In this document: one piece after another, positions 44,692 through 64,000 of the stretch
How positions within the stretch are numbered: the first letter of the stretch is position 1
How the letters are laid out: each line of letters opens with the position of its first letter
DNA from: Campylobacterales bacterium
Lineage (GTDB): Bacteria; Campylobacterota; Campylobacteria; Campylobacterales; Sulfurimonadaceae
Reading direction: 5' to 3'
NCBI GenBank assembly: GCA_016938735.1
Contig: JAFGUB010000029.1
Coordinates: forward strand, 1 to 64,000
DNA: 64,000 nucleotides
Program-made: the position numbers and the translations under genes
Notes under the pieces: model-generated
What the model was told of the DNA's origin: nothing
The model's input: the letters and a program-made list of their open reading frames with translations, nothing else
Database searches by the model: none

Positions 44692-44724
44692 GCCAACACT
44701 CATCCAACACTTCATTTGTACTAT
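44692..44724 (+). promoter_or_regulatory. Direct-repeat promoter A (sensor/hybrid-kinase operon)
   Basis: GCCAACACT (44692-44700), CA, TCCAACACT (44703-44711), seven bases, then TACTAT (44719-44724) as -10. Same layout as the promoters at 61127, 61169 and 62671. Confidence 0.72.
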
Positions 44725-44753
44725 GTCACCTATTTTTGCATTTAGGGGCATGG

Positions 44754-45761
44754 TTGCATCTTTTCCAAAAAAGCTTGTTCACTATAATGCGCGGATTGAA
44801 GACATTGCAAGGCAGCGGAATTGTCCTCTTTGGTGCCCTTTCGCTGCTGCTTGGTACGGCTGTCTTGCTCTGGTCGCTCTACCATCAACACAACCTTAAT
44901 AAGACGATTGAAGCGGAACTTAGATTGATGGCGCGGGACTTTGACGCGACTATCTCACAGCAGGCCAAGGGGCTCTTGATCACAGCAAACACCATCACCC
45001 TTATGCCGCATATGCAAAAAGCGTTGGCGCAGAAAGATCGCCATGCACTTCAAGATCAGTGGGCAGCTATCTTTTCGACGATACGTCAAGAGGGGGTAAC
45101 CCATTTCTATTTTTATGACACGAAGCGCTTGACGCTTTTGCGTCTGCATCAACCCTCTCGCTATGGAGACCTTATCGACCGTTTTAGTGCACGGCAGGCA
45201 GAGGCAACCCAAAAAGCCGCGTGGGGACTTGAACTAGGTCCCATGGGAACTTATACCCTTCGTGTCGTAGCGCCTGTGTGGATGAATAACATCTTGATCG
45301 GCTATGTTGAGCTTGGCAAAGAGATCGAAGAGGTGCTTAATGATTTGAAATTTCGCTACGGTCATGATCTGATTATGCTTATCAACAAACAGCAGCTCAA
45401 TCAGGAGTCGTGGCAGGAGGGGTTGCAGATGCTCGGACGCTCTTTTGATTGGGCACTCAATGATACCTATGCGGTGACTTACAGTACCGACAATGCATTG
45501 CTGGCGCGGTTGGCCCCATTGGCTGATTCGGGGCACCAGCATGTGGCGATCAGCCAAAAGGTGACATTGAATGAGACACTCTATGCGCTGTGCTATATTC
45601 CAATCTATGATGCCACCGGAAAAGAGAGTGCGCACATGCAGGTCATACGTCCGATTGAGCCTTCGCTACCGAAAATGTCCCTACTACTTTTGATGATTTT
45701 TGGTGCATCCTCCATCATCACTGCACTATGGATCAGCCTGAAGCACTGGAGTTACCAATGA
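44754..45761 (+). CDS. Stand-alone dCache-type periplasmic sensor
   Basis: About 335 residues: one N-terminal membrane segment (near 22-42), a large periplasmic domain of about 240 residues with a helix-then-two-sheet pattern resembling double Cache_3 sensors (YFYDTKRLTLLRLHQPSRYGD, YVELGKEIEEVL), and a second segment at the C-terminal end, then only a few residues. No transmitter domain follows. Its stop overlaps the hybrid kinase start (ATGA), so it may act as a sensing partner of that kinase. Start is uncertain: TTG 44754 has AGGGG five bases upstream; ATG 44787 has no ribosome site. Confidence 0.65.
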   Translation: MHLFQKSLFTIMRGLKTLQGSGIVLFGALSLLLGTAVLLWSLYHQHNLNKTIEAELRLMARDFDATISQQAKGLLITANTITLMPHMQKALAQKDRHALQDQWAAIFSTIRQEGVTHFYFYDTKRLTLLRLHQPSRYGDLIDRFSARQAEATQKAAWGLELGPMGTYTLRVVAPVWMNNILIGYVELGKEIEEVLNDLKFRYGHDLIMLINKQQLNQESWQEGLQMLGRSFDWALNDTYAVTYSTDNALLARLAPLADSGHQHVAISQKVTLNETLYALCYIPIYDATGKESAHMQVIRPIEPSLPKMSLLLLMIFGASSIITALWISLKHWSYQ

Positions 45762-48700
45762 AAATTCTGATTGTATTATGGCTTTTGAGTCTGCTTTTAC
45801 ACGCCCAAGAGGATCTGATCCGTTTTGGCGTCTATCAATTCAAAGGCAAAGAGCTGACGCAAGAAGAGTATGCACCTTTGCTTGAGCATTTAAATGCTCA
45901 TCTGGGCAAAAAAGTGGTTTTGGAGGTGCTTAGCCAAGAGGAGATCGAAGAGAAGATCAAAGCCCAAACGCTCGATATCGTCACAACCAATCCGACACAC
46001 TTTTTGTTCGTCCGGAAGCAACATGCGCTCAGCGGCGCGATCGCAACCCTCATTACGGAGTGCAATAAAAAACCGGTTGACAAGCTAGGCGGTGTCATTG
46101 TCGTACGTCGCGACAGCCCGATCTACAACCTCAAAGACCTTATCGGCACTACCATTGCCGTTCCTTCCAAAAAGAACATGGGGGGTTTTAGAGCTCAAGC
46201 GTATGAGCTACTCAAAATCGGCATCGATATCGCCAAGCAGACGCAGATCATGGAGCTGCAGACGACGCACCACGATGTCGTCCGTGCAGTGCTTGACAAA
46301 AAAGTCGAAGCGGGTTTTGTACGCAGCGGCATTATCGAATCAATGGTTCGCGATGGAGCAATCGATAGCCATCATCTCCGGATCATTAACCAAAAAACCC
46401 ATCATAATTATCCCATGATCACCTCAACGGCTCTTTATCCGGAGTGGCCCGTTTTCGCACTCAAACATACCGATCCGGATGATGTCAAGCTCTTTGCCTC
46501 TACCCTCTTTACCTACAAACCCGCAACGCTCCAAACGCATAACGGCATTTACGGCTACACCCTTCCAGCGGATTATCTGGAGGTGGAAGAGCTCTCTCGC
46601 GCCCTTCGCCTGCCCCCTTTTGAGAACTATGGAGTAATTACACTTAGAGATATTTGGCAAAAGTACCGCTACTCGATTGTACTTATGGCGCTCTTGTTTA
46701 TGGTGACGCTCTTTTATTATGTCCGCGCGCAGCGGCGCAAAAAACTTTTTCAATCACTAGTATCGAATCTTGGAGATGGGGTCTACAGCATCAACCGTGA
46801 GGGTAAATGTCTCTTTATCAACCAAAAAGCGCTCGATCTACTGGGATACCGAGAAGATGAAGTTTTGTGGGTCGATCAGCATCTGCTCTTTCACTATAAG
46901 CATGAAGACAATTCACTATATGAAGAGGAGTCGTGCCCTATCTATCGTACCGTTATTGACCGAAAAACGCGCATGCTCGACGAGTATTTTATCACCAAAT
47001 CAGGTACGCTGTTGCCGATCAGCCTCACGGTCGCCCCGACTGACAACGGCGGAGCGATTGTCGTTTTTCGAGATGTCAGTGAGCAAAAAGCCCTCTACCA
47101 TAAGCTTCAGATGGAGCAGGATCTCTTCTCTCAAGGGCCGGTCATCACCATCGAGTGGGCGCCGCAGGAGCACTGGCCCATTCGGTATGTCTCCAAAAAC
47201 GTTGAGGTTATTTTGGGCTATGGACCCTCAGAGATGATTGACGAAGCCTTTTCGTATGGTGACTTGATCCATCCTGATGATTTCGAGCGCGTCAGCCGTG
47301 AAGTGGAAGAGAAGATACGCCGTCATGATGTCGCCTTTGAGCAGTCCTATCGGCTGCGCAAAAAAGATGGAAGCTACCGTTGGTTTTATGATTTTACCCG
47401 TCTGGTATGGGTAAACGAGCAGCTTGTGTCGATCCATGGATACATGTTCGATCAAACCCAGCTCAAGCAGGTTCAAGAGGAGATTATCCTGGCCAAAGAG
47501 GAGGCTGAAAAAGCCAGCCGCACCAAAAGTAATTTCTTGGCCAATATGAGCCACGAGATCAGGACGCCGATGAACGCGATCATCGGTTTGAGTCAACTGC
47601 TTTTGCAGGGCGATCTCAAGCCCAAAGAGCGTGACTTCATCGACAAGATCAACAGCTCGTCTAAAATGCTGCTGGGCATCATTAACGACATTCTCGACTA
47701 CTCCAAGATGGAAGCCGGCAAAATGGAGCTGGAGGCAAAGCCTGTGGAGCTGGAAAATGTACTAGAACAGCTTAGAACTCTCTTTGTGCAACTCGCTACC
47801 AAAAAAGAGCTCGAGCTCTATTTCAAAATCGATCCCGAGGTTCCATGGACGATTATTGCAGATGAATTGAGAATCAATCAGATCCTCACGAATCTTCTAA
47901 GCAATGCGCTCAAATTTACCCAAAGCGGCAACATTACGCTCTCGATCTCTTTGCTGCGCAAAAGTGAATCAAACGCTACCCTCTACTTTTCAATCAGCGA
48001 TACCGGCATCGGCATGAGCGAGGTACAGATCGCCAAACTCTTTGAGCCCTTTACTCAAGCCGACTCTTCAACGACGCGCAAATACGGCGGCACGGGTTTA
48101 GGTCTAACGATTTCAAAACGTCTGGTCGAAGCGATGGGCGGCATGCTTGGTGTCTCAAGCCGGCTGAATCAGGGAAGCACCTTTTCATTTGCGATTGATG
48201 TACCGGTTTTGGCGTGGAGCAGATCCAAACCGCAAATAGCGAACCACCCTTGTCGGGTTTTGGTTGTCGATGATCAGCCCATCGCGCGGGAGATTCTCAA
48301 AAACATCCTGCATGGCTTTACATGTAGCGTGGATGAAGCGGCCAACGGCCAAGAAGCGATCGAAAAACTGCTCCAAGCGGATCAAGCGGAATTGTCTTAT
48401 GACTATATGCTCCTTGATTGGCAGATGCCCGTTATGGATGGCAAAGAGACCATCAAGCGAATCAACCAACTCTCACGGGAGGGACGCTTACATGTAACAC
48501 CGCCGATGTTTTATATGATCAGCGCCTATACCTTTAGTAATGACGAAGCACTCCCGATCAGCTCGTTTCTGGCCAAACCCATCACCGCTTCCTCACTCTA
48601 CAAGACACTATTTGAATCTTCTGATCAGCGCACGCAGCTAAAGCAAACACTGCCTGATTTTAGCGGTATGCGCGTTTTGCTCGTTGAAGATAACGAGATC

Positions 48701-49417
48701 AATCAGGAGGTGGCCTCGATGATGCTTGAGCAGGTCGGTATCGATGTGACCGTTGCCGCAAACGGTCAAGAGGCGATCGATCGGCTCTTTAGCGATGGTG
48801 CCTACTATGATTTGATACTGATGGATCTGCAGATGCCCGTGATGGGCGGCTATGAGGCGACCCGCTTGATTCGTGCGCGCAACAGTGTGATACCGATCAT
48901 TGCGCTTACGGCGGCCGCCATGATCGAAGACCGTCATAAAGCGCTTGAAGCGGGTATGAACGACCACCTCGGCAAGCCCATAGAGAGCCAAGAACTCTAT
49001 CGACTGCTGGCGCAGTGGGGAAAACGCGAGGCGTATCATTCTGCGCTACCACAGGAGCCTAGCATGCTTCCCTCAACCGAAGCCGTATTGGATATGACGC
49101 ATCTGAACCGATTGATGAAGGGTAACCAAGAGCGAATATCGAAATTGCTCGAGATGTTCGCCCATAACCTAAGTGATGAATTTCATTCCATCACTGCGTC
49201 GGTGCGCGCGCACGATCCGTCGGCACCGGCATCGATCCATGCGCTCAAGGGGGTCAGTGCAAACATGGGTGCAAAGGCGCTGACGAAGGTTTGCAGTGCA
49301 ATAGATGCTTGCTACAAAACGCAAACGCAACCAGACGACCAAGTGATTGATGCGCTTGAATATGAGATAGACCGGGTCAAAGAGCACCTTAAAGCTGAGC
49401 ATGGTTTACTACTTTGA
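45758..49417 (+). CDS. Hybrid histidine kinase with PhnD-like sensor and phosphorelay
   Basis: A 1219-residue multi-step kinase. Signal peptide (1-17), a periplasmic PhnD/phosphonate-binding-like domain (about 20-300, with AVPSKKNMGGF), a membrane segment (about 304-323), two PAS domains (about 330-440 and 455-575), HisKA with His599 in NMSHEIRTP, an HATPase with GGTGLGLTISKRLVEAMGG, two receivers (Asp887 in LLDWQMP, Asp1023 in LMDLQMP) and a C-terminal Hpt with His1161 in SIHALKG. This is the full BvgS/TorS relay order. The partner regulator is not obvious. Copies of the palindrome lie at 48318 and 48488. Its 3' end recurs at 51412. Confidence 0.92.
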   Translation: MKILIVLWLLSLLLHAQEDLIRFGVYQFKGKELTQEEYAPLLEHLNAHLGKKVVLEVLSQEEIEEKIKAQTLDIVTTNPTHFLFVRKQHALSGAIATLITECNKKPVDKLGGVIVVRRDSPIYNLKDLIGTTIAVPSKKNMGGFRAQAYELLKIGIDIAKQTQIMELQTTHHDVVRAVLDKKVEAGFVRSGIIESMVRDGAIDSHHLRIINQKTHHNYPMITSTALYPEWPVFALKHTDPDDVKLFASTLFTYKPATLQTHNGIYGYTLPADYLEVEELSRALRLPPFENYGVITLRDIWQKYRYSIVLMALLFMVTLFYYVRAQRRKKLFQSLVSNLGDGVYSINREGKCLFINQKALDLLGYREDEVLWVDQHLLFHYKHEDNSLYEEESCPIYRTVIDRKTRMLDEYFITKSGTLLPISLTVAPTDNGGAIVVFRDVSEQKALYHKLQMEQDLFSQGPVITIEWAPQEHWPIRYVSKNVEVILGYGPSEMIDEAFSYGDLIHPDDFERVSREVEEKIRRHDVAFEQSYRLRKKDGSYRWFYDFTRLVWVNEQLVSIHGYMFDQTQLKQVQEEIILAKEEAEKASRTKSNFLANMSHEIRTPMNAIIGLSQLLLQGDLKPKERDFIDKINSSSKMLLGIINDILDYSKMEAGKMELEAKPVELENVLEQLRTLFVQLATKKELELYFKIDPEVPWTIIADELRINQILTNLLSNALKFTQSGNITLSISLLRKSESNATLYFSISDTGIGMSEVQIAKLFEPFTQADSSTTRKYGGTGLGLTISKRLVEAMGGMLGVSSRLNQGSTFSFAIDVPVLAWSRSKPQIANHPCRVLVVDDQPIAREILKNILHGFTCSVDEAANGQEAIEKLLQADQAELSYDYMLLDWQMPVMDGKETIKRINQLSREGRLHVTPPMFYMISAYTFSNDEALPISSFLAKPITASSLYKTLFESSDQRTQLKQTLPDFSGMRVLLVEDNEINQEVASMMLEQVGIDVTVAANGQEAIDRLFSDGAYYDLILMDLQMPVMGGYEATRLIRARNSVIPIIALTAAAMIEDRHKALEAGMNDHLGKPIESQELYRLLAQWGKREAYHSALPQEPSMLPSTEAVLDMTHLNRLMKGNQERISKLLEMFAHNLSDEFHSITASVRAHDPSAPASIHALKGVSANMGAKALTKVCSAIDACYKTQTQPDDQVIDALEYEIDRVKEHLKAEHGLLL

Positions 49418-51536: not shown

Positions 51537-53255
51537 TTATCTCTGTAAATGTAGTTGAGGTTTGCCAAAATAGTATCCTTGAGAATAGGTGATGCCCAAA
51601 GCAGACACCAGCTCAAAGATCTCTTCATTTTCAACATATTCGGCGACGGTTTGAATTCCCATTTTCTGAGCAAATTGGACAATGGCTTCCACGATGATGC
51701 GGCTTCGCGGCATAGTGCGTATATTTTTGATCAATGAGCCGTCAATTTTGATGATATCCGGCTCTAATCTGGTGAGATATTCGAAATTGGAATACCCTGT
51801 GCCAAAATCATCGATAGAGAGCTTGCAACCCCGCTTTTTGAGCTCGGTGATGAATTGCGTAAAGCTTTGCGTCTGAACCATCTGCTCTGTCTCCACCAAT
51901 TCGATGACCACACGCTGTGGTTCAGAGAAAGAGTCGATCATTTCCAGTAAATAAGCGCAGGTCTTTTGATTGAGAATGTCATCACGTTCAATATTGAACG
52001 TGAACGATTCCAAGCGATGACGAAATGTTGCGCAGGCTTGCTGAAAAATAGTCTGAGAGATGACGTGATAAAGGTGGGCTTTTTTAGCGATATTCAAAAA
52101 AGACCCAGGTGTCATTACAGTGCCATTTTGATCAATAAGACGTGCAAGTGTCTCATATTTAACGATGTGTTTTGAACTATTTTCGACGATTGGCTGATAA
52201 TAAGCGACTATGCGGCAGTCCATGACGGCCCGATGAAGCGTCTTGACCATAGCAAATTTCTCTTTATAGGCCTGTTTTATTGGTAAGGACGCATCAAAGC
52301 TGATCTTGCCGCTCTCATCGTATTTGGCCTTGTGGAGTGCACTCGTAGCCCTCATGAAAAGATCATCTCCTCCACCGGCTAAACCAATGCTGACTTGAAC
52401 AGGTAATGTCATGTCGGTATCTTTTCCATCGTAATCAACGACAAATGTTTGCGTCATTAAGTTGGTTTGTAGTGCTTCAAGTGCATCGTCAAGCATTTTC
52501 AGGCTGCACGACGGCTTTGCCAAGAGGGCAAATTCATCGCTGTGGCCTCTATACACTTCGGCTATCTCGTCAAAGTGCTCCAGTGGCAAATTGGCAAGCT
52601 GCTGAAGAATGCTGTCCCCTACATGATAGCCGTAGTATTCGTTGATTTCATGGAACTTATTGATGTTGATTAAGGCTAGTGAGCCTTCAGCTCTCTGTTT
52701 AAGCGTTTGCATCAATGCATGAATATTGTGTAGTCCGGTCAGAACATCCTCTTGATAAAGGGCTTCTAGCTTTCGTTGATGTTGTCTTACCTGTATCTCT
52801 AGCTGTTCGTAAAAGTACTTTCGATTTTTACGATCGCTGATACTGCGACACACTTTGTAAAAAGCCTGTTTGAGCAGTGCATCGTTCAAGGGTTTGGACA
52901 AAAAGGCATTCGCTCCGATCTCAATAGCCTGATAAAAAATTTCGGGCTCATTATGGGCACTAATGAGAATGATCGCCTGATCGGGGATTTGAGCAAGGAT
53001 CTTTTTACACATTTCAATACCGTTCATGCGCGGCATGCTGATGTCGCTGATGACCAGATCGTAGGGAGTATGATTCTCTTCAATAAAATTTTTAAAACAC
53101 TCAACACCCTCATAACCATCACACGCCGTATCGATCAGTTCAAAATAATTGGAAAAAAGTTTTCGACTGCTCTCGCGTAGCGTAGCATCATCCTCGACAT
53201 ATAAGACGTTACACTCTTTGGAGTAACTCAAAATCTCTTTATTAGTAAAACTCAT
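51537..53255 (-). CDS. Receiver-GGDEF-EAL protein
   Basis: A 572-residue output protein of cyclic-di-GMP signalling. Receiver (about 15-135) with acidic pair in LYVEDDATLRE, phospho-Asp in LVISDISMPRMNG, and Lys in LSKPLND; GGDEF fold (about 165-320) whose loop reads YRGHSDEF, so cyclase activity is doubtful; EAL domain (about 335-570) with KYETLARL, NIERDD, and DDFGTGYSN, keeping the main metal ligands. The likely net activity is phosphodiesterase, controlled by phosphorylation. It is the last gene of the six-gene operon and overlaps the kinase before it by four bases. Confidence 0.88.
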   Translation of the reverse strand: MSFTNKEILSYSKECNVLYVEDDATLRESSRKLFSNYFELIDTACDGYEGVECFKNFIEENHTPYDLVISDISMPRMNGIEMCKKILAQIPDQAIILISAHNEPEIFYQAIEIGANAFLSKPLNDALLKQAFYKVCRSISDRKNRKYFYEQLEIQVRQHQRKLEALYQEDVLTGLHNIHALMQTLKQRAEGSLALININKFHEINEYYGYHVGDSILQQLANLPLEHFDEIAEVYRGHSDEFALLAKPSCSLKMLDDALEALQTNLMTQTFVVDYDGKDTDMTLPVQVSIGLAGGGDDLFMRATSALHKAKYDESGKISFDASLPIKQAYKEKFAMVKTLHRAVMDCRIVAYYQPIVENSSKHIVKYETLARLIDQNGTVMTPGSFLNIAKKAHLYHVISQTIFQQACATFRHRLESFTFNIERDDILNQKTCAYLLEMIDSFSEPQRVVIELVETEQMVQTQSFTQFITELKKRGCKLSIDDFGTGYSNFEYLTRLEPDIIKIDGSLIKNIRTMPRSRIIVEAIVQFAQKMGIQTVAEYVENEEIFELVSALGITYSQGYYFGKPQLHLQR

Positions 53256-54763
53256 GAGATCCTTCTTTTCGGGATTTGGATCACGAAACAGACGCCATCA
53301 TCACTATTTTTAGCACTCATTTTTCCTTCATGATGCACTTCAATAATGGTTTTGGACATGTAAAGCCCCAGCCCGGTACCTTCGTTGGCACCTTTGGTAG
53401 TGAAATAGGGATCAAAGATCTGATTCAAGAACGCTTCGGGAATGCCGCCGCCGTTATCACAAAACTCCAAGACTACGCTCTGTTCATCTTCATAACTTCT
53501 GATGCGGATACGGGGGTTGGGAGTCTGTTTGATCTGGAAGTTCTCTTGTGCATTACGCAAAATACTGATAATGACATGCATGATTTCGCTTATAAACAAG
53601 TTGAGTGTGGAAGAAGATGCGTACTGTTCTTGAACATCTATGGAGCCTTGAAGCATATAGCAGTTCATGATTTTAAGTGCTTTGACGACAGGTTCTTCAA
53701 TATGTGCCTCTTGTGCCTTTCTTTGTAACTTATAAAAGTTTCTAAAATCATCGATGGTCGTTGATAGAATCTTGGTAAAGTCGCCCATATCATCGATTGA
53801 TGCTTTGAAATACTCTAGGCATAGGTCTCGCTCCATGGCATCCTCAAGGTTGAAATGCTCCATCTCAAATTTAATTTTCATATCCAAAATAGTTGCATTG
53901 ATAGCACCTAATGGTTGTCGCCACTGATGGGCAATCATAGAGATCATCTCTCCGATAGCGGCCATTTTGGATTGCTGAAGCAGAAGCTGATTTCGCAGCA
54001 ACTGCTCTTGTTGCAGACGATAGAGTTCATTGGTACGTGCTTCAACCTCTAATGCCAATTCTCTCTTTATGCTTTGATTTTGCATGATATACAGCAGAAT
54101 AAAAGGGAATAAAATAAACGTGTAAAACCCCAACTCGAACAGCGAGCGCAACAAGACTTTTTTGAGCTCTTCTTGAACAAAATCGATTCTAATATCCGCA
54201 GCTAAAAGATAGACGGTTCCATTGTCGGTTTTTTTTGGAATGAAAATCGATCGAAATGATCCCCACTGGTCGGTATATTCCGCAAACATTGTTTGACCAC
54301 TTTGTAGCGCTTTGTGAAGTTCCGGTGCAGCATCTTGATAGGGATCGAAAAAAAGCACCAGACCTTCTCCAGTATGGAACTCCTCATCCGTCGCGCTGCA
54401 AGAGGTGAAATGCACCATATCCCCTACTTTGATACATGAGTAGATGTATTGCAGTGAGGTCAGTTTGACATAATCGGACAGCTGCTTGATATTGGCCAAA
54501 TCTTCTTTAACGGTGATGGCATTCTCGTTCGTCGCACGATCATGAAAGTCCACGGGTAGCAGGACCTCTATGCTTTGCGCACCCAGCTTCAAGGCGCTAT
54601 CAATTCTCTCCATGAGCTCCTCTTTGGCTTTTTGATAGTTGTGGTAGGCATAGGTTGAAATAGCGGTAAAATAAAAGACCAAAGCAAGAAAATAGGCTAC
54701 CCTTCTTGTATGCCTCTCTCTCGCAATTAGAGGATTTGTAAAAAGAGTCCAAAAACGCATCAT
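53252..54763 (-). CDS. Histidine kinase with membrane-bound extracytoplasmic sensor
   Basis: 503 residues. Membrane segment (about 22-42), a periplasmic domain of about 165 residues with four cysteines, two in SCSATDEEF context (Cache-like pattern, YLLAADIRIDFVQEELKKV at its end), second segment (about 208-230), coiled linker, then HisKA with His in SMIAHQWRQPLGAI and HATPase with CDNGGGIPEAF and GTGLGLYMSK. From the QQSKMAAIGEM block onward it is nearly identical to the phytochrome kinase next door. Fifth gene of the operon; overlaps both neighbours by four bases. Sensed ligand unknown. Confidence 0.88.
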   Translation of the reverse strand: MMRFWTLFTNPLIARERHTRRVAYFLALVFYFTAISTYAYHNYQKAKEELMERIDSALKLGAQSIEVLLPVDFHDRATNENAITVKEDLANIKQLSDYVKLTSLQYIYSCIKVGDMVHFTSCSATDEEFHTGEGLVLFFDPYQDAAPELHKALQSGQTMFAEYTDQWGSFRSIFIPKKTDNGTVYLLAADIRIDFVQEELKKVLLRSLFELGFYTFILFPFILLYIMQNQSIKRELALEVEARTNELYRLQQEQLLRNQLLLQQSKMAAIGEMISMIAHQWRQPLGAINATILDMKIKFEMEHFNLEDAMERDLCLEYFKASIDDMGDFTKILSTTIDDFRNFYKLQRKAQEAHIEEPVVKALKIMNCYMLQGSIDVQEQYASSSTLNLFISEIMHVIISILRNAQENFQIKQTPNPRIRIRSYEDEQSVVLEFCDNGGGIPEAFLNQIFDPYFTTKGANEGTGLGLYMSKTIIEVHHEGKMSAKNSDDGVCFVIQIPKRRIS

Positions 54764-57700
54764 GTTCTCTTTTTGGGCAATTCAATCACAAAGCAGACGC
54801 CATCATCACTATTTTTAGCACTCATTTTTCCTTCATGATGCACTTCAATGATGGTTTTGGACATATGCAGCCCCAGCCCCGTACCCTCATTGGCACCTTT
54901 GGTGGTGAAATAGGGATCAAAGATCTGATTTAAGAGCGCATCGGGAATGCCGCCGCCGTTATCGCAAAGCTCCAAGATGACACTCTGTTCATCTTCATAA
55001 CTTCTGATGCGGATACGGGGGTTGGGAGTCTCTTTGATCTGGAAGTTCTCTTGTGCATTACGCAAAATGCTGATAACGACCTGCATGATCTCGCTGGTGT
55101 AGAGTTTAATTGACGCAGAGGATTCGTAGTGCTCTTGAACGTTGATGGAGTCTTGAACCATATAGCAGTTCATGATTTTGAGTGCTTTGATGACAGGCTC
55201 CTCAATACGCTCCTTTTTGAGCTCGCTTTGCAGCTTATAAAAATTTCTAAAATCATCGATGGTTGTTGTGAGAATTTTGACAAATTCACTAATATCGTTT
55301 AGGGACTCTTTGAAATAGGTGACACATTTGTCACGTTCTAGAGCATTTTCAAGATCGAAAAATTCCATGTCGAGCTTGATGTCCATATCTAAAGCGCTCG
55401 AACCTATAGCGCCTAGAGGTTGTCGCCACTGATGCGCGATCATCGAGATCATCTCTCCGATGGCGGCCATTTTGGATTGCTGAAGCAGTAACTGCTCTCC
55501 CAGCAGGTGCTCTTTTTGCAGTCTGATCAGTTCTATTTGCTGTTTGTGATGTAGTAGCGCTTCATCCAAGTGAGCGTGGAAATCCTTGAATAATGTGCAC
55601 ACCAGAGGGCTCCACGGCAACGATTTCTCTTTTTCGACCTGTTTCCACAATTCAAAAGAGTGCCGGGGTGCGATCACCTGCTCTTCCCCCTCGCCGGAAA
55701 TATTCGATTTTAAGGGATTTCCGGCCCACAGGATCGTCTCTACAAACTCTTTTCTAAAGCAGAGAAAGGTTGTTTTTGGATCTTCGCGCGATTGTAATAT
55801 CATCACTCCAGAACCCTTTTCTTTGTGCAAGAGAAGATGAGGCGCGAGAGCAGGCACCTGATGTGTAACAAAAAAGCCATCTTGTAGTTGTGGCGCGAAT
55901 GCCGCCAAATACTCCAAAACAGCCTCTTGATTCGGGGTGCAGCCTTCGAGTAAAAGGGTGGCCTGCTCTTGGGCGTCTGACTCAATCACCGCGGCAACGC
56001 CATCTGCCTCACACACGCCAAACAGTAAGGGAAGGGACTCTTTGATCCCCTCTATGACCCCCCTGCTTCGTATTCTTTCTTGGAATAGCTCTTGAAAGTG
56101 CTTTGCTTTGTTTTGCAAAAAAAATTGATTTCGATTATTGATCAGCGTTTCTCGTGATGCAACCTCTTTGGAAAAAATCGCTGAAAGGGCTTCATAACCT
56201 TTCCACATGCAAAAAGGGACGATACGACGCGAGGAGTGATGACAGGCGATCATACCCCAAAGCTGGCCCTCTACAATAAGCGAAAGTGACATAGAAGCAG
56301 TCGTGCCCATGTTTTTGAGATATTGGATGTGCACCGGAGAGACGCTGCGCAGTACGACATTGCTCATATCCAGAGGTAATCCGCTGTTGGCTTCATACTC
56401 GGGAACAATGGGAGAAGGGGTATAGTAAATATCTGGGATCACACGAAAATAGTTTTTGGTATAGAGGAGTCGGGCTTGCTTTGGAATGTCGCTAGAGGGG
56501 TAGTGGGAGTGAAGAAAAGACTCCATATGCGGGGGTTTGGATTCGGCAACCACCGAGCCGTTGTACGCTTCATCGAACCGATAGACCATAACACGGTCGT
56601 AACCGCTGAACTTTTGAACGGTGCGCACCATGGCATCGTAAAGGCTCTGCATATCTTCGCCTTCAGAAGAGGCCTTTAGCGCTACATGTATCATCTCTTC
56701 AAGAGGATGAATTCGGATGGCTTTATCCAAAGAAGTTGACTGAAGCTCAAGAATCACCAAGCCATTGGCACTTTTTGAGATCATCGCAAAAAATTCAGAG
56801 CACTCTTGTGTGGACCAAAGGACTTTAAGATGCTCTTGAAGCGTGCAACAAGCGTGAGGTAGGTGGTTGCTGTGGCTTTTGATGCGCACTACATCTTCAC
56901 TCCGAAAAAGCAGCGTTAGCGATTTTCCTAAATAATCATTTGCCTGCCCACCAAAGTAATCGGTGATATTTTCACTTACATGTACTATTTTAAAGTGCTC
57001 TGTCTCGAGTGCTATCAGTATGCCGTGAGGCTGAATGGAGCCGGGGATATGGATGGGCTCACGATCACAGTTGTTCAAATTGACACTCTGTTTTTTTAAA
57101 ATAGCAATCTCTTCTGAACTGAGCAGCTTCTCTTCATTTTGCGTTGAAAAACTCATCATGCTCTCTTTTTGGGTAATGCAATGACAAAGCAGACTCCATC
57201 ATCAATGTTTTTGGCACTAATGCTTCCTTCATGATGCACTTCTATGATTGTTTTGGACATATGAAGTCCAAGCCCCGTGCCTTCATCGGCGCTTTTGGTA
57301 GTGAAGTAGGGATCAAAAATTTTCTCTAAGAGCGCATCGGGAATGCCGCCGCCGTTATCACAAAGCTCCAAGATCACGCTCTGTTGAGTTTCATAACTTC
57401 TGATGCGGATACGGGGTTTAGGAGTCTGTTTGATCTGGAAGTTCTCTTGCGCGTTGCGAAGAATATTGATGACGACCTGCATGATTTCACTCATACTGAG
57501 TGTTACGGTGCTGTTTGCTTCGTAAGACTCCTCTAGTTCAATGGCATTTTGAGAGGTTAAGTAGCCAAGAATTTTGAGTGCCTTTAAAACCGGTACTTCA
57601 ATTCTTGTCTCAAGCATCTCTCTTTGAGGTTTATAGAAGTTTCTAAAATCATCAATGGTGGTTGTCAACACTTTCACAAATCCGCTTATATCCAAAAGCG

Positions 57701-57900
57701 ACGTTTTGTAGTATTCCGTACATTCGTTCAACCCCTCAGGTGTTTGTAGATCAAATGCTTCAATCTCCAGCTTCATCTCCATATCCAAAACGCATGAGCT
57801 AATCGCACCCAGCGGTTGACGCCACTGATGTGCGATCATAGAGATCATCTCGCCCATCATGGCCATACGTGACTGTTGAACCAGCTTGTCTTCTTGGCGC
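53285..57900 (-). repeat. Three near-identical kinase transmitter modules
   Basis: The 3' parts of three consecutive genes (about 53276-54000, 54783-55510, 57172-57900) are paralogous at DNA level. The first two are closest: for example 53294-53345 and 54794-54845 agree almost base for base. The third is more diverged. Sensor regions upstream are unrelated. Confidence 0.85.
54760..57159 (-). CDS. Bacteriophytochrome histidine kinase
   Basis: Predicted red/far-red light sensor, 799 residues: PAS (about 20-130), GAF (150-330), PHY (350-530), HisKA/HATPase (555-799). Cys31 in CDREPIHIPGSIQPHG is the biliverdin attachment site of bacteriophytochromes. Asp224-Ile-Pro in YPSSDIPKQARLLY, RSVSPVHIQYLKNMG and the His pair in WGMIACHHSS (307-308) complete the chromophore pocket; the PHY tongue has APRHSFELW. 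His576 in AHQWRQPL is the phospho-acceptor. All diagnostic residues are kept. Fourth gene of the operon. Biliverdin needs a heme oxygenase, not seen here. Palindrome copies at 56682 and 56976 are read His-Val. Confidence 0.95.
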   Translation of the reverse strand: MMSFSTQNEEKLLSSEEIAILKKQSVNLNNCDREPIHIPGSIQPHGILIALETEHFKIVHVSENITDYFGGQANDYLGKSLTLLFRSEDVVRIKSHSNHLPHACCTLQEHLKVLWSTQECSEFFAMISKSANGLVILELQSTSLDKAIRIHPLEEMIHVALKASSEGEDMQSLYDAMVRTVQKFSGYDRVMVYRFDEAYNGSVVAESKPPHMESFLHSHYPSSDIPKQARLLYTKNYFRVIPDIYYTPSPIVPEYEANSGLPLDMSNVVLRSVSPVHIQYLKNMGTTASMSLSLIVEGQLWGMIACHHSSRRIVPFCMWKGYEALSAIFSKEVASRETLINNRNQFFLQNKAKHFQELFQERIRSRGVIEGIKESLPLLFGVCEADGVAAVIESDAQEQATLLLEGCTPNQEAVLEYLAAFAPQLQDGFFVTHQVPALAPHLLLHKEKGSGVMILQSREDPKTTFLCFRKEFVETILWAGNPLKSNISGEGEEQVIAPRHSFELWKQVEKEKSLPWSPLVCTLFKDFHAHLDEALLHHKQQIELIRLQKEHLLGEQLLLQQSKMAAIGEMISMIAHQWRQPLGAIGSSALDMDIKLDMEFFDLENALERDKCVTYFKESLNDISEFVKILTTTIDDFRNFYKLQSELKKERIEEPVIKALKIMNCYMVQDSINVQEHYESSASIKLYTSEIMQVVISILRNAQENFQIKETPNPRIRIRSYEDEQSVILELCDNGGGIPDALLNQIFDPYFTTKGANEGTGLGLHMSKTIIEVHHEGKMSAKNSDDGVCFVIELPKKRT

Positions 57901-59228
57901 TTCAATGTTTTTCGATTCTCTTCAAGCTCGGTAATGTCCTCCGAAAAAGCGATATATTTATCCGGTTTGCCGTTGGCATCAACGATCATAATAATCTCTA
58001 GGTAGGCCGGATAGATCTCTCCATTTTTACGGCGGTCATATAACCTACCCTTCCAATAGCGTCGGGTGTAGACACTCTCCCACAGCTCTTCGTAAAATTT
58101 TTTATCTTGTAATCCGGAGTTCAATAAACTGGGATTTTTTCCGATGACTTCACTGATCGGATAGCCGGTTATGGCAGTGAAAGCGGGATTGGCGCTCAGA
58201 ATTTGATTGTCGGCGTTGCAAACGATCATGGCCTGTTTGCTGTTGTTGTAGATGTATATCGCCAATTCTCGCTCGGTGATATCAGAATGTGTTCCTATCA
58301 TGCGCAGCGCTTTTCCGTCTTCTGTGCGTTCGACAACTTTCCCACGCGTCATCACCCAGCGACAGCTTCCATCGCTTTTCATGACGCGATGTGAGTTGAT
58401 AAACAACTCGGTTTTGCCGTCTAAATGATCTTGCAGATCGAGTTCTGCTTTTTCGATGTCATCAGGGTGAATGTATCCAGATTCCGAATCGAGCTCACGA
58501 TAGTTATCGAGAATTTGCTCTACTTGAGCCCCTTTATTGATGGTATGAAGCACCTGCTTGGGAATATCCCAGTGCCAGATCTCTTCCGTGCCTGCATCCA
58601 AGAGGAGCTTCCACTTCTCTTCGCTTTTGCGCAGCTCCTCTTCGACTTTAAGGCGTTTTGATTTTTCACGCATCAGATCAATAGTTCGACTCGAGAGGGT
58701 GTCATACATGCTTAAGACAGTATTGATCAGTAAGATCGCCGCTCCCCCCATCTGTTCGTTGGAGTGCTGTTTTGCCTCTGTAAGATTCATACCCTGCTGC
58801 ACTCCCTCAAGCACCAATGCCATGCGCTTGTCTTCATCCAAAATATGACGTGCGAGCCATGTGGTCAAATAATTGACCAGCTCTTTAAGCACCTCCTCTT
58901 GTGCTCTGTGTTGAAGGTTGCTTTTGAGGTTGAGCACCTCATGTGAAAATTGCACATGCGATGCGTGATGCTTTTGAAGCGCGCTGTCTTCAATGAGCAC
59001 CTTTTGCCAGATCCTCTCTTCGTCATTAAAGTGAAAGTTGGCGTAGTCAATCAACTCTTCAAGTACAGAGTCCAGTACGATCTCTTCGGCGTGGTTGACC
59101 AGATGATAGGCCAGCTTGTTGATGATGGCGACCAGTTTTCGATGTTGTGTATCGATACTTGTGATCCCGAGTTCAAAATTTGAATTCCAAGGGAACACTT
59201 CAACATCTACAAAAGTTTCGGTACGCAA
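57156..59228 (-). CDS. Hemerythrin-PAS-PAS histidine kinase
   Basis: 690 residues, cytoplasmic. Residues 12-140 are a bacteriohemerythrin domain with the full di-iron set: His29, His66-x3-Glu70, His87-x3-His91, His128-x4-Asp133. Such domains bind oxygen or NO. Two PAS domains follow (about 205-325 and 325-445; second with NGEIYPAYLEI), then HisKA (AHQWRQPLGAIS) and HATPase with GTGLGLHMSK. The start at 59228 gives MRTETFVDVEVFPW. Third gene of the operon, overlapping the phytochrome gene by four bases and sharing its transmitter sequence. Confidence 0.93.
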   Translation of the reverse strand: MRTETFVDVEVFPWNSNFELGITSIDTQHRKLVAIINKLAYHLVNHAEEIVLDSVLEELIDYANFHFNDEERIWQKVLIEDSALQKHHASHVQFSHEVLNLKSNLQHRAQEEVLKELVNYLTTWLARHILDEDKRMALVLEGVQQGMNLTEAKQHSNEQMGGAAILLINTVLSMYDTLSSRTIDLMREKSKRLKVEEELRKSEEKWKLLLDAGTEEIWHWDIPKQVLHTINKGAQVEQILDNYRELDSESGYIHPDDIEKAELDLQDHLDGKTELFINSHRVMKSDGSCRWVMTRGKVVERTEDGKALRMIGTHSDITERELAIYIYNNSKQAMIVCNADNQILSANPAFTAITGYPISEVIGKNPSLLNSGLQDKKFYEELWESVYTRRYWKGRLYDRRKNGEIYPAYLEIIMIVDANGKPDKYIAFSEDITELEENRKTLKRQEDKLVQQSRMAMMGEMISMIAHQWRQPLGAISSCVLDMEMKLEIEAFDLQTPEGLNECTEYYKTSLLDISGFVKVLTTTIDDFRNFYKPQREMLETRIEVPVLKALKILGYLTSQNAIELEESYEANSTVTLSMSEIMQVVINILRNAQENFQIKQTPKPRIRIRSYETQQSVILELCDNGGGIPDALLEKIFDPYFTTKSADEGTGLGLHMSKTIIEVHHEGSISAKNIDDGVCFVIALPKKRA

Positions 59229-59243
59229 GATGGCTCCTTGGGT

Positions 59244-60311
59244 TTAAAAAAACTCTATTGCATCCTCATTTGATTCATCAAGCATAAACATGGCGATGAT
59301 CTGACGAATACTGAGTTTGGTAGGTTCATGTATATGATGAATGTTTTTCATTGCCATGCTCTCAACGCTGAACCGACGGGTATAGCGCTCAACATCATTG
59401 GCAATCGCGTCAAAAAGAGCGATCAATTGGTCTTGATCTCCCTGAAACATGGAGACAAAAGCTTCACTATTCTGGGCGATGGAGATGGAAAGATCTTCAA
59501 AGCTTTTGGCCAGAGGATCCAAAAAGGGTGTATAGTGCAACAGAATGGATGAAATTTTTTGAAGATGTTCGGAGACTTTAAAAATAGTTGTCGTGTCTTC
59601 AAAAGGATCATATCTGGAGAGCAGTTCTAGGATTTCATCAAACAGTTCGGAGAGTTCTTCACAATCCTCAGGAAGAAACAGAACATTTTCGTCACCTTCA
59701 TCTTCATCTTCGGCAAAATATTCGTTCAATAGACCATGACCCTGCTCTAAAAGGTTTTCAAGCTGTTGGTGTTTGATCTCTACAACGACCGATTGCTGCT
59801 CATAACGGCGTATTTGTTCTTCAAGCCTCTTTTTTTCAATATTAAGCTGCATCGTTAATGCGGTCATTTCGTCAATATAGCGATTGATCAGTCTATGGTC
59901 ACAAACTGCCTGACAGACCTTAAAGAGTGTAGCTTTTAATTGATCGGCTTGAAGGGGTTTGGTTAAAAATCCATTGACACCCAAATTGATTGCTTGCTGC
60001 AGATAATGAATTTCATTGTGTGCAGTGATAAAGACAACAGCCTGTTCAGGGTTAAATGCAAGGATCTCCCGACACATCTCTATGCCGCTAAGGTGAGGCA
60101 TGTCGATATCACTAATGATCAGATCATAGGAGCTGTTAGAGGTGCGATATTTTTGCAATCCCTCCTGTCCATCTTCTGCAGTATCAACTTTTAAAAAGTA
60201 GTTTTCAAAAAGAGAGGATGTTTTACTGCGTAGAGCAGCATCGTCTTCTACATAGAGCACGCTCATGGTTTTGGAATATTCACGGATTAATTTGTTATCG
60301 ATATGTTTCAT
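59244..60311 (-). CDS. Receiver protein with coiled coil and unknown C-terminal domain
   Basis: 355 residues. Receiver (about 15-130) with LYVEDDAALRS, phospho-Asp in LIISDIDMPHLSG and Lys in LTKPLQ, very similar to the receiver of the GGDEF-EAL protein at 51.5-53.3 kb. A coiled coil (about 150-200), an acidic stretch (EDEDEGDENV), then about 130 helical residues with no DNA-binding, GGDEF or Hpt motif I can recognise. ATG 60311 is chosen; it overlaps the HD-GYP gene end by 17 bases. Possibly a phosphate sink or protein-interaction output for the operon's kinases. Confidence 0.82.
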   Translation of the reverse strand: MKHIDNKLIREYSKTMSVLYVEDDAALRSKTSSLFENYFLKVDTAEDGQEGLQKYRTSNSSYDLIISDIDMPHLSGIEMCREILAFNPEQAVVFITAHNEIHYLQQAINLGVNGFLTKPLQADQLKATLFKVCQAVCDHRLINRYIDEMTALTMQLNIEKKRLEEQIRRYEQQSVVVEIKHQQLENLLEQGHGLLNEYFAEDEDEGDENVLFLPEDCEELSELFDEILELLSRYDPFEDTTTIFKVSEHLQKISSILLHYTPFLDPLAKSFEDLSISIAQNSEAFVSMFQGDQDQLIALFDAIANDVERYTRRFSVESMAMKNIHHIHEPTKLSIRQIIAMFMLDESNEDAIEFF

Positions 60312-61080
60312 GGTGACTCCTACGGTGCAGTGTGATGAATACATTGACCAGCTCTCTATCCAACTGAGATAGCAACTCTCTCTTCATGTAAATGAGTGCT
60401 TCAAAGCTTGAGTAGTTTCTGCGAAATGTACGGCGTGTGGTTAAAGCATCAAACACATCACACATACCTATGATACGCGCATATTTTGGGATTCTTCTTC
60501 CTTTAAGCCCTTCGGGATAGCCGGAGCCGTCAAGTCGCTCATGGTGATAGAGTACGCCGTGAAGGATGCTCAGATCATCAACACCGTTTCGGATCAGAAT
60601 CTGCGTACCGTAGCGCGAATGCATCTTTACCTGCTCAAACTCATCCTCTTCCAAAAGGGTCGGTTTATCTAAAATAGCCGCATCGATATGGAGTTTCCCC
60701 AAATCATGCGTGAGTGCCGCAAAGACAAGCCCCCGCATTTTGTCAAGCTCAAACGAGAGTTTTTGGCCCAGAATCGCGCTGAGAAACGCTACATTGGTCG
60801 AGTGCTCGTAGGTGGAGTAGTTAAGCGAAATAAAGCCCAAAAAAAGCGGAAAGATTTGGTCGCATTGAGATACCTCTATGATCTCTTCAACACAGTGACG
60901 CAACTTCTCGACATCAAACAGCTCATCGCCGGAGGCGAATATCTCTTGCATCAATTCGGCTGTTTTGGAGTACACGGCGATCAGACTACTGTTTTGTTGT
61001 TTCAAAAATAGAGGCTCTTTCTGGTTGGATTGATAGCTGTTATAGCTTTGATTTGTTCTTGCTGTAACGGCTTGAAGCAT
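60295..61080 (-). CDS. HD-GYP phosphodiesterase
   Basis: 261 residues: a helical N terminus (1-85), then an HD-GYP domain: EHSTNVAFLS, THDLGKLHID (HD pair), HHERLDGSGYPEGL (GYP loop) and DVFDALTTRRTFR. All metal-binding positions seem kept, so it should hydrolyse cyclic-di-GMP or a similar dinucleotide. First gene of the minus-strand operon, with direct-repeat promoter C 50 bases upstream. Confidence 0.9.
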   Translation of the reverse strand: MLQAVTARTNQSYNSYQSNQKEPLFLKQQNSSLIAVYSKTAELMQEIFASGDELFDVEKLRHCVEEIIEVSQCDQIFPLFLGFISLNYSTYEHSTNVAFLSAILGQKLSFELDKMRGLVFAALTHDLGKLHIDAAILDKPTLLEEDEFEQVKMHSRYGTQILIRNGVDDLSILHGVLYHHERLDGSGYPEGLKGRRIPKYARIIGMCDVFDALTTRRTFRRNYSSFEALIYMKRELLSQLDRELVNVFITLHRRSHHETYR

Positions 61081-61126: not shown

Positions 61127-61159
61127 ATGATACCCGCCGAGTGTTGGATGAGTGTTGGA
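61127..61159 (-). promoter_or_regulatory. Direct-repeat promoter C (six-gene minus operon)
   Basis: Read on the minus strand: TCCAACACT (61159-61151), CA, TCCAACACT (61148-61140), seven bases, TATCAT (61132-61127) as -10. Confidence 0.75.
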
Positions 61160-61168
61160 TAGAAGTGC

Positions 61169-61201
61169 TCCAACACTCATCCAACACTCTTTGAGTAATA
61201 T
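61169..61201 (+). promoter_or_regulatory. Direct-repeat promoter B (PAS-PAS-HD-GYP gene)
   Basis: TCCAACACT (61169-61177), CA, TCCAACACT (61180-61188), seven bases, TAATAT (61196-61201) as -10. With promoter C it forms a 21-base inverted repeat with nine bases between the arms. Confidence 0.75.
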
Positions 61202-61232: not shown

Positions 61233-62657
61233 ATGTCACATCAGCATCATGCGTGGAGGGAGGAGCAACATCTGCTTGAGCAGTACAAGGAGATTGTGGA
61301 TATCAGCAATATTGTCTCCAAAGCCAACCGATACGGAACCATCACTTATGTCAACAGTCACTTTTGCAAACTCGCGGGCTATACCAAAGAGGAGCTTTTA
61401 GGCAAACCTCATAGTATTGTGCGCCATCCCGACATGCCAAAAAAGCTCTTTGAGCAGATGTGGCGAACCATTGAAGCCAAAAACATTTGGAACGGAGTCG
61501 TCAAAAATAGAGCCAAAGACGGCCATAGCTACTACGTCGATACAACGATCAAGCCCATTTTGAACCGCGACGGCGATATTGTTGAGTACATCGCCATTCG
61601 CAAAGACATTACGGAGCTTGAGGAGTTTAGGCAGCAGCTTGAAAACGAGCTGAGCGTCAAAGAGGAGAACCTGCAGGAGATGATGCGCCGCTCGCGCGAA
61701 TACCACAAGGCGATGGATGAGAGCACGATTTTGGTACGTGTCGATCTGAATGGAAAAATCACCTACATCAACCGCGAATTTACCCATGCGCTTGGCTATA
61801 CGGCGGCTGAAATCATCGGACAGGATCACCGCATTTTAAAACACCCCGATACCCCAAAGGTGATTATCAAAAATATTTGGGAAACGATTGTGTCGGGCAG
61901 AACATGGAAGGGGATCATTCAAGATTGCGACAAAAATGGTAAGACCGTCTGGCTCGACACCGTCATCGTACCGATCAAGAACATGAAAGAGGAGGTGGTG
62001 GAGTACCTCACCATCCGCCATAACGTTTCTGAAATCATACAGCTGCATGAAGAGATCGAAACGACCCAAGGGGAGTTGATCTATACCCTAGGCGCGGCTG
62101 CCGAAACACGCAGCAAAGAGACCGGCAACCATATCAAGCGCGTTGCACACTACTCCAGACTGTTGGCGCGGCTTTACGGTTTAAACAATAAAGAGGCCGA
62201 AATCCTTTTTCAGGCTTCTCCGATGCACGACATAGGAAAGCTCGCCATACCCGATCATGTACTCAATAAATCGGGCAGGCTCGATGACGAGGAGTGGGAG
62301 ATCATGCGCACGCACAGTGAAGTAGGCTATAAAATCCTTAATAACTCAACCAGACCCATTCTCAAAGCAGCGGCCATTGTGGCGTATGAACATCATGAGA
62401 AGTGGGACGGAAGCGGCTATCCGCGCGGGCTTAAAGGCGAAGAGATTCACCCGTTTGGACGGATCACCGCGCTCGCCGATGTCTTCGATGCGCTCGGTAG
62501 CGAACGGGTCTATAAAAAGGCTTGGCCGCTGGAGCAGATTATTGAATATTTAAACACCCAAAAGGGGCGGCATTTTGATCCTAGGCTTGTAGCGCTTTTT
62601 CTAAGCCGTCTTGACGATTTCTTGGCCGTTCGAGACCAATTTCAAGATGAGCTGTAG
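61233..62657 (+). CDS. PAS-PAS-HD-GYP phosphodiesterase
   Basis: 474 residues, soluble. PAS 1 (about 20-135: ITYVNSHFCKLAGYTKEELLG), PAS 2 (about 165-285: ITYINREFTHALGYTAAEIIG), then HD-GYP (about 290-474) with SPMHDIGKLAIPDHVLNK, HHEKWDGSGYPRGLKGEEI and ADVFDALGSERVYK. Both catalytic signatures are intact. PAS domains of this kind may bind heme, flavin or small molecules; no heme motif can be assigned. GGGAGGG sits eight bases before the ATG. Confidence 0.92.
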   Translation: MSHQHHAWREEQHLLEQYKEIVDISNIVSKANRYGTITYVNSHFCKLAGYTKEELLGKPHSIVRHPDMPKKLFEQMWRTIEAKNIWNGVVKNRAKDGHSYYVDTTIKPILNRDGDIVEYIAIRKDITELEEFRQQLENELSVKEENLQEMMRRSREYHKAMDESTILVRVDLNGKITYINREFTHALGYTAAEIIGQDHRILKHPDTPKVIIKNIWETIVSGRTWKGIIQDCDKNGKTVWLDTVIVPIKNMKEEVVEYLTIRHNVSEIIQLHEEIETTQGELIYTLGAAAETRSKETGNHIKRVAHYSRLLARLYGLNNKEAEILFQASPMHDIGKLAIPDHVLNKSGRLDDEEWEIMRTHSEVGYKILNNSTRPILKAAAIVAYEHHEKWDGSGYPRGLKGEEIHPFGRITALADVFDALGSERVYKKAWPLEQIIEYLNTQKGRHFDPRLVALFLSRLDDFLAVRDQFQDEL

Positions 62658-62670
62658 CGATACGCATCAA

Positions 62671-62703
62671 TCCAACAGTGATCCAACACTCTTGGGATAA
62701 AAT
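62671..62703 (+). promoter_or_regulatory. Direct-repeat promoter D (kinase/regulator pair)
   Basis: TCCAACAGT (62671-62679), GA, TCCAACACT (62682-62690), seven bases, TAAAAT (62698-62703) as -10. The gene behind it encodes the local two-component pair, so autoregulation is likely. Confidence 0.72.
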
Positions 62704-62730: not shown

Positions 62731-63537
62731 ATGGCATGTTTTTTAGTAGCATTGATAGTGATTTTGGCGCTGGCGCTGACCTACTACGTCGTGATGTTTC
62801 AGCGCCAGAAGAGGCAATGCGGCGTCCTTCTTGACGAGCTGAACCAATCTACGGCGCAGCAAACCTTTTTTATGCGCAAAATGATCCACGAGATGAACAC
62901 CCCCTTAAGCGCGATAGAGCTAAACGTCTCCACGCTGCTCAAAGAGCGCTGTTGTACCCATAGTGTCGAAATGATCAAAAGCTCCGCACGTATGCTGGCG
63001 ACCATCTATGAAGATATCGCGTTTCACGTCGGTAAAGAGAAGATCTGCTACCCCGCGCAGTGGATCGATTTGGAGTCGTTTGTGGCTGATCGGATGCTCT
63101 ATTTTGACACGATGGCCAGCGTCAAAAACATCTTTCTTGAGATGCAATCAGATCCGGAGTGCTACGTCTATATCAGCAAAACGGAGCTTCAGCGCATCGT
63201 GGACAACACCCTCTCCAATGCCATCAAGTACTCCACCAGCGCCTCGCCGATCATCGACATTACGATCATTCATGTCGATGGCGCGATTGAGCTGATCTTC
63301 AAAGATACCGGTATCGGCATGAGTGACGATGAGGTCAAAAATCTCTTTGTCTCCTACTACCGGGGTATGCACAATGCGCAGGGACTTGGGCTTGGCATGA
63401 GCATCATCAAGAAGATTTGCGACGACTACGACATAGTCATCCGCGTGCAGAGTAAAAAGAGAGAGGGAAGCCTCTTTAGCTATACCTTTCCGCCCAAAAT
63501 GGTCACAAAAGATCCAAGTGCCAACGGTCATCCATGA
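62731..63537 (+). CDS. Small histidine kinase
   Basis: 268 residues: one membrane segment (about 4-23), short linker with no sensor domain, HisKA with His53 in MIHEMNTPLSAIEL, and HATPase with DNTLSNAIKYS, FKDTGIGMS and GLGLGMSIIKKICDDY. With no periplasmic domain it may sense within the membrane or via partner proteins. GGAG six bases before ATG. Its stop overlaps the regulator start (ATGA). Confidence 0.9.
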   Translation: MACFLVALIVILALALTYYVVMFQRQKRQCGVLLDELNQSTAQQTFFMRKMIHEMNTPLSAIELNVSTLLKERCCTHSVEMIKSSARMLATIYEDIAFHVGKEKICYPAQWIDLESFVADRMLYFDTMASVKNIFLEMQSDPECYVYISKTELQRIVDNTLSNAIKYSTSASPIIDITIIHVDGAIELIFKDTGIGMSDDEVKNLFVSYYRGMHNAQGLGLGMSIIKKICDDYDIVIRVQSKKREGSLFSYTFPPKMVTKDPSANGHP

Positions 63538-64000
63538 GAGCCTTACTGCTAGAGGATGATTTCAACACCTCTTTTGTGATCGCTGCCCGGCTCGAAACGA
63601 TGGGTTATAGCGTCGATAAGTGCTTTGACGGCGAGTGCGCGATGAATGCGGTGTACGCCAAGCAGTACGATGTCTACATACTCGATTTGATGGTGCCCAA
63701 CGTCGATGGATACGAGGTGCTAGAGTATATCGTGAGCAGTAATCCGCTCGCGGCCACCATTGTTATTTCGACGCACATTGAGATAGAGTATCTTAAAAAA
63801 GCATTCCAAAAGGGGTGCAGCGACTACTTGAAAAAGCCTTTTGAGATGGAAGAACTGCTGCTACGAATCAGAAATGTGGTGCGTCTCACCGGCAGCAAAA
63901 CCAATACGGAGATCATCAATCTCTCGCAAGGCTATAGCTACTCACTCCCCAAAAACGAACTCTACTATTACGACGAGCTGATTGAGCTGACCAAAATCGA
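63534..64000 (+). CDS. OmpR-type response regulator (cut by the window edge)
   Basis: First 155 residues only. Receiver with LLLEDDFNTS, phospho-Asp51 in YILDLMVPNVDG, and Lys in DYLKKPFEMEELLLRIRNVVR; the final part YSYSLPKNELYYYDELIEL is how winged-helix domains of the OmpR/PhoB class begin. Translationally coupled to the kinase. It is the best candidate to bind the 11-bp-period direct repeats at promoters A-D, since OmpR/PhoB regulators bind such repeats in place of a -35 box. Confidence 0.88.
   Translation, partial: MRALLLEDDFNTSFVIAARLETMGYSVDKCFDGECAMNAVYAKQYDVYILDLMVPNVDGYEVLEYIVSSNPLAATIVISTHIEIEYLKKAFQKGCSDYLKKPFEMEELLLRIRNVVRLTGSKTNTEIINLSQGYSYSLPKNELYYYDELIELTKI

Follow-up and report, generated by a model that had tools for sequence, protein, structure and literature searches.

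In the nitric oxide (NO) networks of Shewanella, HnoX-HnoK-HnoB/HnoD and NosP-NahK-NarR, one kinase takes its signal from a heme or FIST protein that is separate from it, and HnoD is a further regulator (PMC8846402). Here we describe an operon from a member of the Sulfurimonadaceae that brings three histidine kinases, each with its own sensor, next to two receiver proteins and c-di-GMP (cyclic di-GMP) phosphodiesterase domains. It occupies positions 51537-61080 of the 64,000-nucleotide stretch of contig JAFGUB010000029.1 that we analysed (the window). We propose, with a probability of about one half, that it is a three-input integrator that arose by sensor swapping: light, O2 or NO and a periplasmic ligand would be relayed to two receivers and to c-di-GMP breakdown, under a promoter captured from a new OmpR regulon. 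This reading builds on features seen in the sequence, namely gene order, domains, sensor ligands, a degenerate GGDEF domain, the ancestry of kinases and receivers, a promoter box and its co-occurrence with a regulator. For comparison we used 200 genomes of the family; genomes and loci carry labels beginning with G and L, the window's own genome being G000. Domains were called with Pfam at the model cut-offs, and curated families with NCBIfam.

Layout of the operon

A check of the open reading frames in the window placed all six genes on the minus strand. Gene 1 (60295..61080) encodes a stand-alone HD-GYP phosphodiesterase of 261 amino acids (Pfam HD_5, 84.1 bits; cut-off 27.2). Gene 2 (59244..60311) encodes 355 amino acids comprising a receiver (Response_reg), a long coiled coil and a conserved helical domain without assigned function. 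The kinases follow: gene 3 (57156..59228, 690 amino acids, TTG start) has the architecture Hemerythrin-PAS-PAS-HATPase, gene 4 (54760..57159, 799 amino acids) is a bacteriophytochrome histidine kinase with a PAS-GAF-PHY core (PAS_2-GAF-PHY-HATPase), and gene 5 (53252..54763, 503 amino acids) is a membrane histidine kinase with a periplasmic single-Cache sensor and HATPase_c behind the membrane segment. Gene 6 (51537..53255, 572 amino acids) joins a receiver to a degenerate GGDEF domain and an EAL phosphodiesterase (Response_reg-GGDEF-EAL).

Genes 1 and 2 overlap by 17 bases, provided that gene 2 begins at the ATG at 60311. Fifteen bases separate gene 2 from the TTG start of gene 3 at 59228, for which AAGGAG, immediately upstream, makes a good ribosome-binding site. 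Each of the three remaining junctions is a 4-base overlap. The coordinates, strand, junctions and domains given by an earlier reading of this DNA (the original prediction) were all reproduced. No relative was found in viral contigs, and a contig search with the phytochrome kinase as the query returned distant kinase matches only. The best plasmid match came from Aliarcobacter and there was a FlgS-Campylobacter match, both in keeping with Campylobacterota.

Ancestry of the kinases and receivers

With the phytochrome kinase as the query, the three transmitters are 72-78% identical, far above the 43% that the next kinase in the genome reaches at most, so their likeness is not due to chance. They are of the HQWRQP type, to which the genome holds about 30 matches. 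In the kinase tree, the three form one clade (support 100/100) on a long stem. Their nearest outside relative is the kinase of locus L050, in another genome, where a plain pair consists of a gene 2-like receiver protein and a kinase directly downstream. An independent tree of 96 receivers unites the receivers of gene 2, gene 6 and L050 in one clade (100/86). Because both trees share the L050 pair as nearest relative, the kinases and receivers, judged by their phylogeny, go back to one ancestral receiver-kinase pair. Grouping the gene 6 receiver with those of EAL proteins of the same architecture in L052 and L060 was rejected by the approximately unbiased (AU) test (p = 0.008, the group having been picked after the tree was seen).

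Common origin from one pair favours shared specificity and shared receivers, as does the finding that the residues flanking the phospho-accepting His are identical or small in all three kinases. The original prediction had called the transmitters almost the same and assigned them to the same two receivers, from which it predicted that signals would be summed. The single clade and the matching trees agree with shared receivers, with one qualification: the kinases are most alike in the ATPase domain (82-91% identity) and less so over the first 139 codons, which include the DHp domain (55-69%), so that specialisation is possible. The codons of the ATPase half are likewise more often identical (Fisher p 0.002-0.02). 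Recent gene conversion among the kinases was considered and is only partly supported, as a significant run was found for the phytochrome and membrane kinases (p = 0.005) and for no other pair.

These differences bear on the strongest alternative, in which the kinases are insulated, each having taken its own partner after duplication (gene 2, gene 6 or a distant receiver), and the operon provides co-expression only. The gap between DHp and ATPase identity and the higher codon identity of the latter fit partial gene conversion of the catalytic part only, and the genome holds many receivers besides its roughly 30 matches to this kinase type. We nevertheless regard insulation as rather unlikely, given the conserved surroundings of the phospho-accepting His and the shared ancestor of the local receivers, a relative of which is paired with the nearest relative of the kinase clade.

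Three predicted sensory inputs

In gene 4, PAS_2, GAF and PHY all exceed their Pfam cut-offs, and comparison with phytochromes in the PDB gave matches down to 3e-86. The chromophore pocket is intact: the biliverdin-binding Cys31 lies in NCDREPIHIPG, PSSDIP, RSVSPVH and ACHH are present, both pocket His positions and SDIP are kept, and the tongue reads PRHSF (PRxSF). The match to the NCBIfam BphP equivalog NF041576 covers residues 24-520 only and scores 278.7 bits, below the cut-off of 1040. The genome also encodes a heme oxygenase, at another locus (C4:59303-59860; 40.8 bits, cut-off 23). Together with the Cys and the pocket motifs it makes light sensing credible, and gene 4 is a credible biliverdin phytochrome for red/far-red light.

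The hemerythrin domain of gene 3 scores 92.5 bits against the NCBIfam family bact_hemeryth (NF033749, cut-off 84), and its di-iron ligand positions are retained in an alignment with DcrH. We propose that its input is O2, NO or redox state, perceived through the di-iron hemerythrin and the two PAS domains. From the conserved ligands we infer chromophore loading of gene 4 and iron loading of gene 3.

The sensor region of gene 5 matched no Pfam family. Its AlphaFold2 model shows a confident single-Cache (PDC/Cache, sCache) fold between two membrane helices, with a predicted local distance difference test (pLDDT) score of 92.9. The best solved match is the sCache domain of a formate receptor (8py0; Z 13.5 over 146 residues, root mean square deviation 3.1), and DcuS and CitA also match; the Z scores of the best matches range from 13.5 to 12.4. 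On the strength of this model, gene 5 is proposed to be a periplasmic sCache sensor with a small-ligand input; relatives of this membrane sensor occur in 54 of the 200 family genomes. The earlier assignment of light, O2/NO and membrane inputs is thus supported: all phytochrome and hemerythrin ligand residues tested are kept, heme oxygenase is present in the genome, and the model supplies the sCache domain.

Phytochromes were found in 4 of 397 sampled genomes of the phylum, and a literature search found no paper on phytochromes in Campylobacterota; the present genes look functional and add to the few phytochromes of a lineage that seldom has them. Several further ones were seen. Immediately behind the heme oxygenase gene stands a second phytochrome, joined to HD-GYP and a partial GGDEF domain (L012:433-2958 and L009; G000:C4); G131 (L069) and G265 (L070) have comparable fusions of a phytochrome to HD-GYP. 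An output-less PAS-GAF-PHY phytochrome (L011:1498-3051, G000:C51) adjoins a phytoene-desaturase-like gene; its counterpart in G001 (L015) is 64% identical and those in G491 are 42-45% identical. In G491 (L068), a CheB/CheR-like gene directly follows an output-less phytochrome. A fourth phytochrome of the window's genome (L013:955-2973, G000:C36) is interrupted by an in-frame TAA just ahead of the PRxSF tongue.

A promoter box and its proposed OmpR-type regulator

Scans for sigma-70 promoters and terminators performed no better on this DNA than on shuffled sequence; the promoter is marked instead by a box of two 11-bp direct repeats (CMAACACTNAT) at a fixed distance ahead of the -10 element. 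Allowing up to 3 mismatches, a genome-wide search for CCAACACTSATCCAACACT-N7-TANNAT yielded exactly five sites, all with fixed spacing to TAnnAT and all preceding signalling genes; a reversed-pattern control yielded none. The operon's own box, CCAACACTCATCCAACACT-N7-TATCAT (61127..61158, minus strand), has no mismatch to the pattern. It forms an inverted pair with a second perfect box (61170..61201, plus strand), the two lying between gene 1 and a divergent gene for a PAS-PAS-HD-GYP protein (61233..62657, plus strand). This regulon member is 76% identical to a gene of G136 that has a 3-mismatch box upstream. A box with one mismatch (62672..62703, plus strand) precedes a histidine kinase (62731..63537, plus strand; HisKA and HATPase_c) and its partner, an OmpR-type response regulator (63534..64000, plus strand, running on to about G000:C6:64220; Response_reg 77.7 bits, Trans_reg_C 46.8 bits), which is the candidate box binder. 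Another perfect box (44693..44724, plus strand) lies ahead of a dCache sensor gene and a hybrid kinase (44736-49417); in G001, a gene 60% identical to the one behind this box is preceded by a 1-mismatch box. The fifth box precedes a GGDEF/HD-GYP operon on contig 47 (L132:2766-7978), next to which look-alikes of a SiaABC-type phosphatase, kinase and substrate were recognised by eye only.

Among the family genomes, the OmpR-type regulator has eight clear orthologues (56-72% identical; next matches 41%) with a common recognition helix, and orthologues of the kinase adjoin it in all eight. Seven of nine genomes with the regulator, and none of 11 without it, have boxes with no more than 2 mismatches. 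The incomplete genome G001 has one. The corresponding Fisher p value is 0.0005, or 0.002 if G001 is counted as lacking the regulator, in a test that is not fully independent because the box was derived partly from the tested genomes. Seven regulator neighbourhoods hold 11 sites at this threshold, compared with none in 20 block shuffles. Predicted targets in the relatives include GGDEF, EAL, HD-GYP, chemoreceptor, STAS and related genes; in G149, a chemoreceptor with a nitrate/nitrite-sensing (NIT) domain lies directly behind a perfect box (L199:4443-6401). From the box and the regulator, a c-di-GMP regulon can be predicted for several genera of the family; no published description of it was found. 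Box and regulon are additions to the original prediction, which had overlooked them.

In the promoter arrangement of PhoB and OmpR, tandem 11-bp repeats lie close ahead of the -10 element and take the place of the -35 element; here, the neighbouring OmpR-type regulator would bind the box. That the box serves some other regulator, with the OmpR-type pair as just another target, is unlikely: the pair does have a box of its own and the genome holds further OmpR-type regulators, but the repeats match the PhoB/OmpR arrangement, and in different genera the box goes together with the OmpR orthologue and is absent from genomes that have paralogues only.

Outputs of the operon

The HDLGK, HHE and DGSGYP motifs of gene 1 align with solved HD-GYP proteins. 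Pfam found no receiver domain in gene 1, which leaves just genes 2 and 6 among the three outputs able to accept a phosphoryl group. In gene 6, the GGDEF signature has become HSDEF and the metal-binding DxD has become NIN. Its EAL domain carries an ETL variant that keeps the E, and its N, E, DD, K, E and Q residues align with solved EAL domains. Because the GGDEF domain is dead by sequence and the phosphodiesterase motifs of genes 1 and 6 are kept, the link is to c-di-GMP removal, not to both arms of its turnover. Read from these motifs, the outputs comprise two phosphodiesterases but lack a cyclase, and the operon is predicted to degrade c-di-GMP, not to make it. The earlier list of outputs stands in its domain make-up, and its c-di-GMP link on the phosphodiesterase side; the synthesis side falls away, and a receiver is absent from the HD-GYP protein.

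Gene 2 has a canonical receiver and a C-terminal domain with a nearly invariant HHIHxPT motif. This domain is present in 37 of the 200 family genomes, and it stands beside kinases of the same type in all of the 20 neighbourhoods read except L057 and L067. The AlphaFold2 model of gene 2 (pLDDT 82; predicted template modelling score 0.48) gave no fold assignment for the output domain, because receiver domains took up the matches in the fold comparison. The protein had been described as a receiver of unknown function. Its family proves to be a recurrent one, usually within kinase clusters. In a further alternative, the kinases would signal mainly to gene 2, like the kinase of the ancestral pair, and would govern a process other than c-di-GMP turnover, the phosphodiesterases being simply co-expressed. 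We consider this decidedly improbable: L050 has no c-di-GMP enzyme, and such enzymes do not always accompany the kinases next to gene 2 relatives, but gene 6 fuses a receiver of the same clade to an intact EAL domain, and GGDEF, EAL and HD-GYP genes abound in the regulon of which the operon's box is part.

Assembly and proposed working

Gene 1 is 55% identical to stand-alone HD-GYP genes of G131 and G181. Each of these also follows a box and faces away from the kinase-regulator pair or from genes upstream of that pair, the boxes lying in the intervening DNA. The gene 1 protein extends eight residues beyond the end common to these proteins, into the overlap with gene 2. No box was found at the receiver-kinase clusters of other genomes. 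Because the gene 1 orthologues stand alone behind boxes and the clusters elsewhere are boxless, the simplest reading is that gene 1 is a conserved, ancestral box gene behind which the kinase module was added. The operon is thus probably a composite of a regulated HD-GYP leader and a multiplied receiver-kinase pair, with three inputs converging on c-di-GMP removal.

In our model, the OmpR-type regulator would bind the two repeats upstream of the -10 element and activate a small c-di-GMP and signalling regulon, of which the HD-GYP leader would be an old target. One ancestral receiver-kinase pair would have been appended behind the leader and multiplied in place, its transmitter being joined to the phytochrome, hemerythrin-PAS-PAS and periplasmic Cache sensors and its receiver being copied onto the degenerate-GGDEF-EAL phosphodiesterase of gene 6. 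Most likely, all three kinases would exchange phosphoryl groups with both related receivers. The inputs would then converge both on c-di-GMP hydrolysis by the EAL domain and on whatever the helical output domain of gene 2 does. We infer phosphotransfer, box binding, a sign for each input and, as the result, lowered c-di-GMP.

Several observations weigh against this integrator model. The DHp domains have diverged more than the ATPase domains, and specificity could have split after duplication; a kinase may also work mainly as a phosphatase. One of the two outputs that phosphotransfer would reach, the helical domain of gene 2, is without assigned function. For the regulon, two of the nine regulator-bearing genomes (G056 and G237) have 3-mismatch sites only, and the box pattern was partly fitted on the genomes that served to test it. 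If the integrator model holds, the operon is a compact case of many-to-one signalling, in which duplicated transmitters retain their partners, sensors are exchanged and an existing regulated promoter is taken over.

Comparison with known systems

The original prediction knew of no described system of this make-up. The exact set was indeed not found in the literature searched; related multi-kinase clusters with the gene 2 receiver family, receiver-GGDEF-EAL or receiver-HD-GYP proteins do recur in the family. Those of L052, L056 and L060 share with the operon several HQWRQP kinases, a gene 2 homologue and receivers, as well as a receiver-GGDEF-EAL protein in L052 and L060. In contrast to the operon, no phytochrome kinase, hemerythrin kinase or box was found there, and the receiver of their EAL protein is of separate origin (AU p 0.008).

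The Shewanella NO networks likewise lead from a gas input through a histidine kinase to a receiver-linked phosphodiesterase or a combined diguanylate cyclase (DGC)-phosphodiesterase (PMC8846402); here, three kinases with built-in sensors, light included, take the place of one, and the GGDEF domain is dead by sequence. Bacteriohemerythrin is an O2 or redox input to c-di-GMP in VcBhr-DGC and Ferrovum Bhr-HD-GYP as well (PMC8846402), but drives the enzyme directly in those proteins, whereas the hemerythrin of gene 3 would drive a kinase. With BphP kinases, gene 4 shares the PAS-GAF-PHY core, the biliverdin Cys, the pocket motifs, the PRxSF tongue and the fusion to a kinase; its transmitter differs in being of the HQWRQP type common to its two neighbours, and the protein scores below the equivalog cut-off.

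The promoter resembles the pho box of PhoB in its OmpR-type regulator and in two 11-bp direct repeats that replace the -35 element near the -10 element. It differs in the repeat itself and in its targets, which are c-di-GMP enzymes and kinases, and binding of the regulator is putative here. Taken together, the sequence comparisons give good support to the view that the locus is an unusual combination of known parts, probably a convergent two-component system inside a newly predicted regulon.

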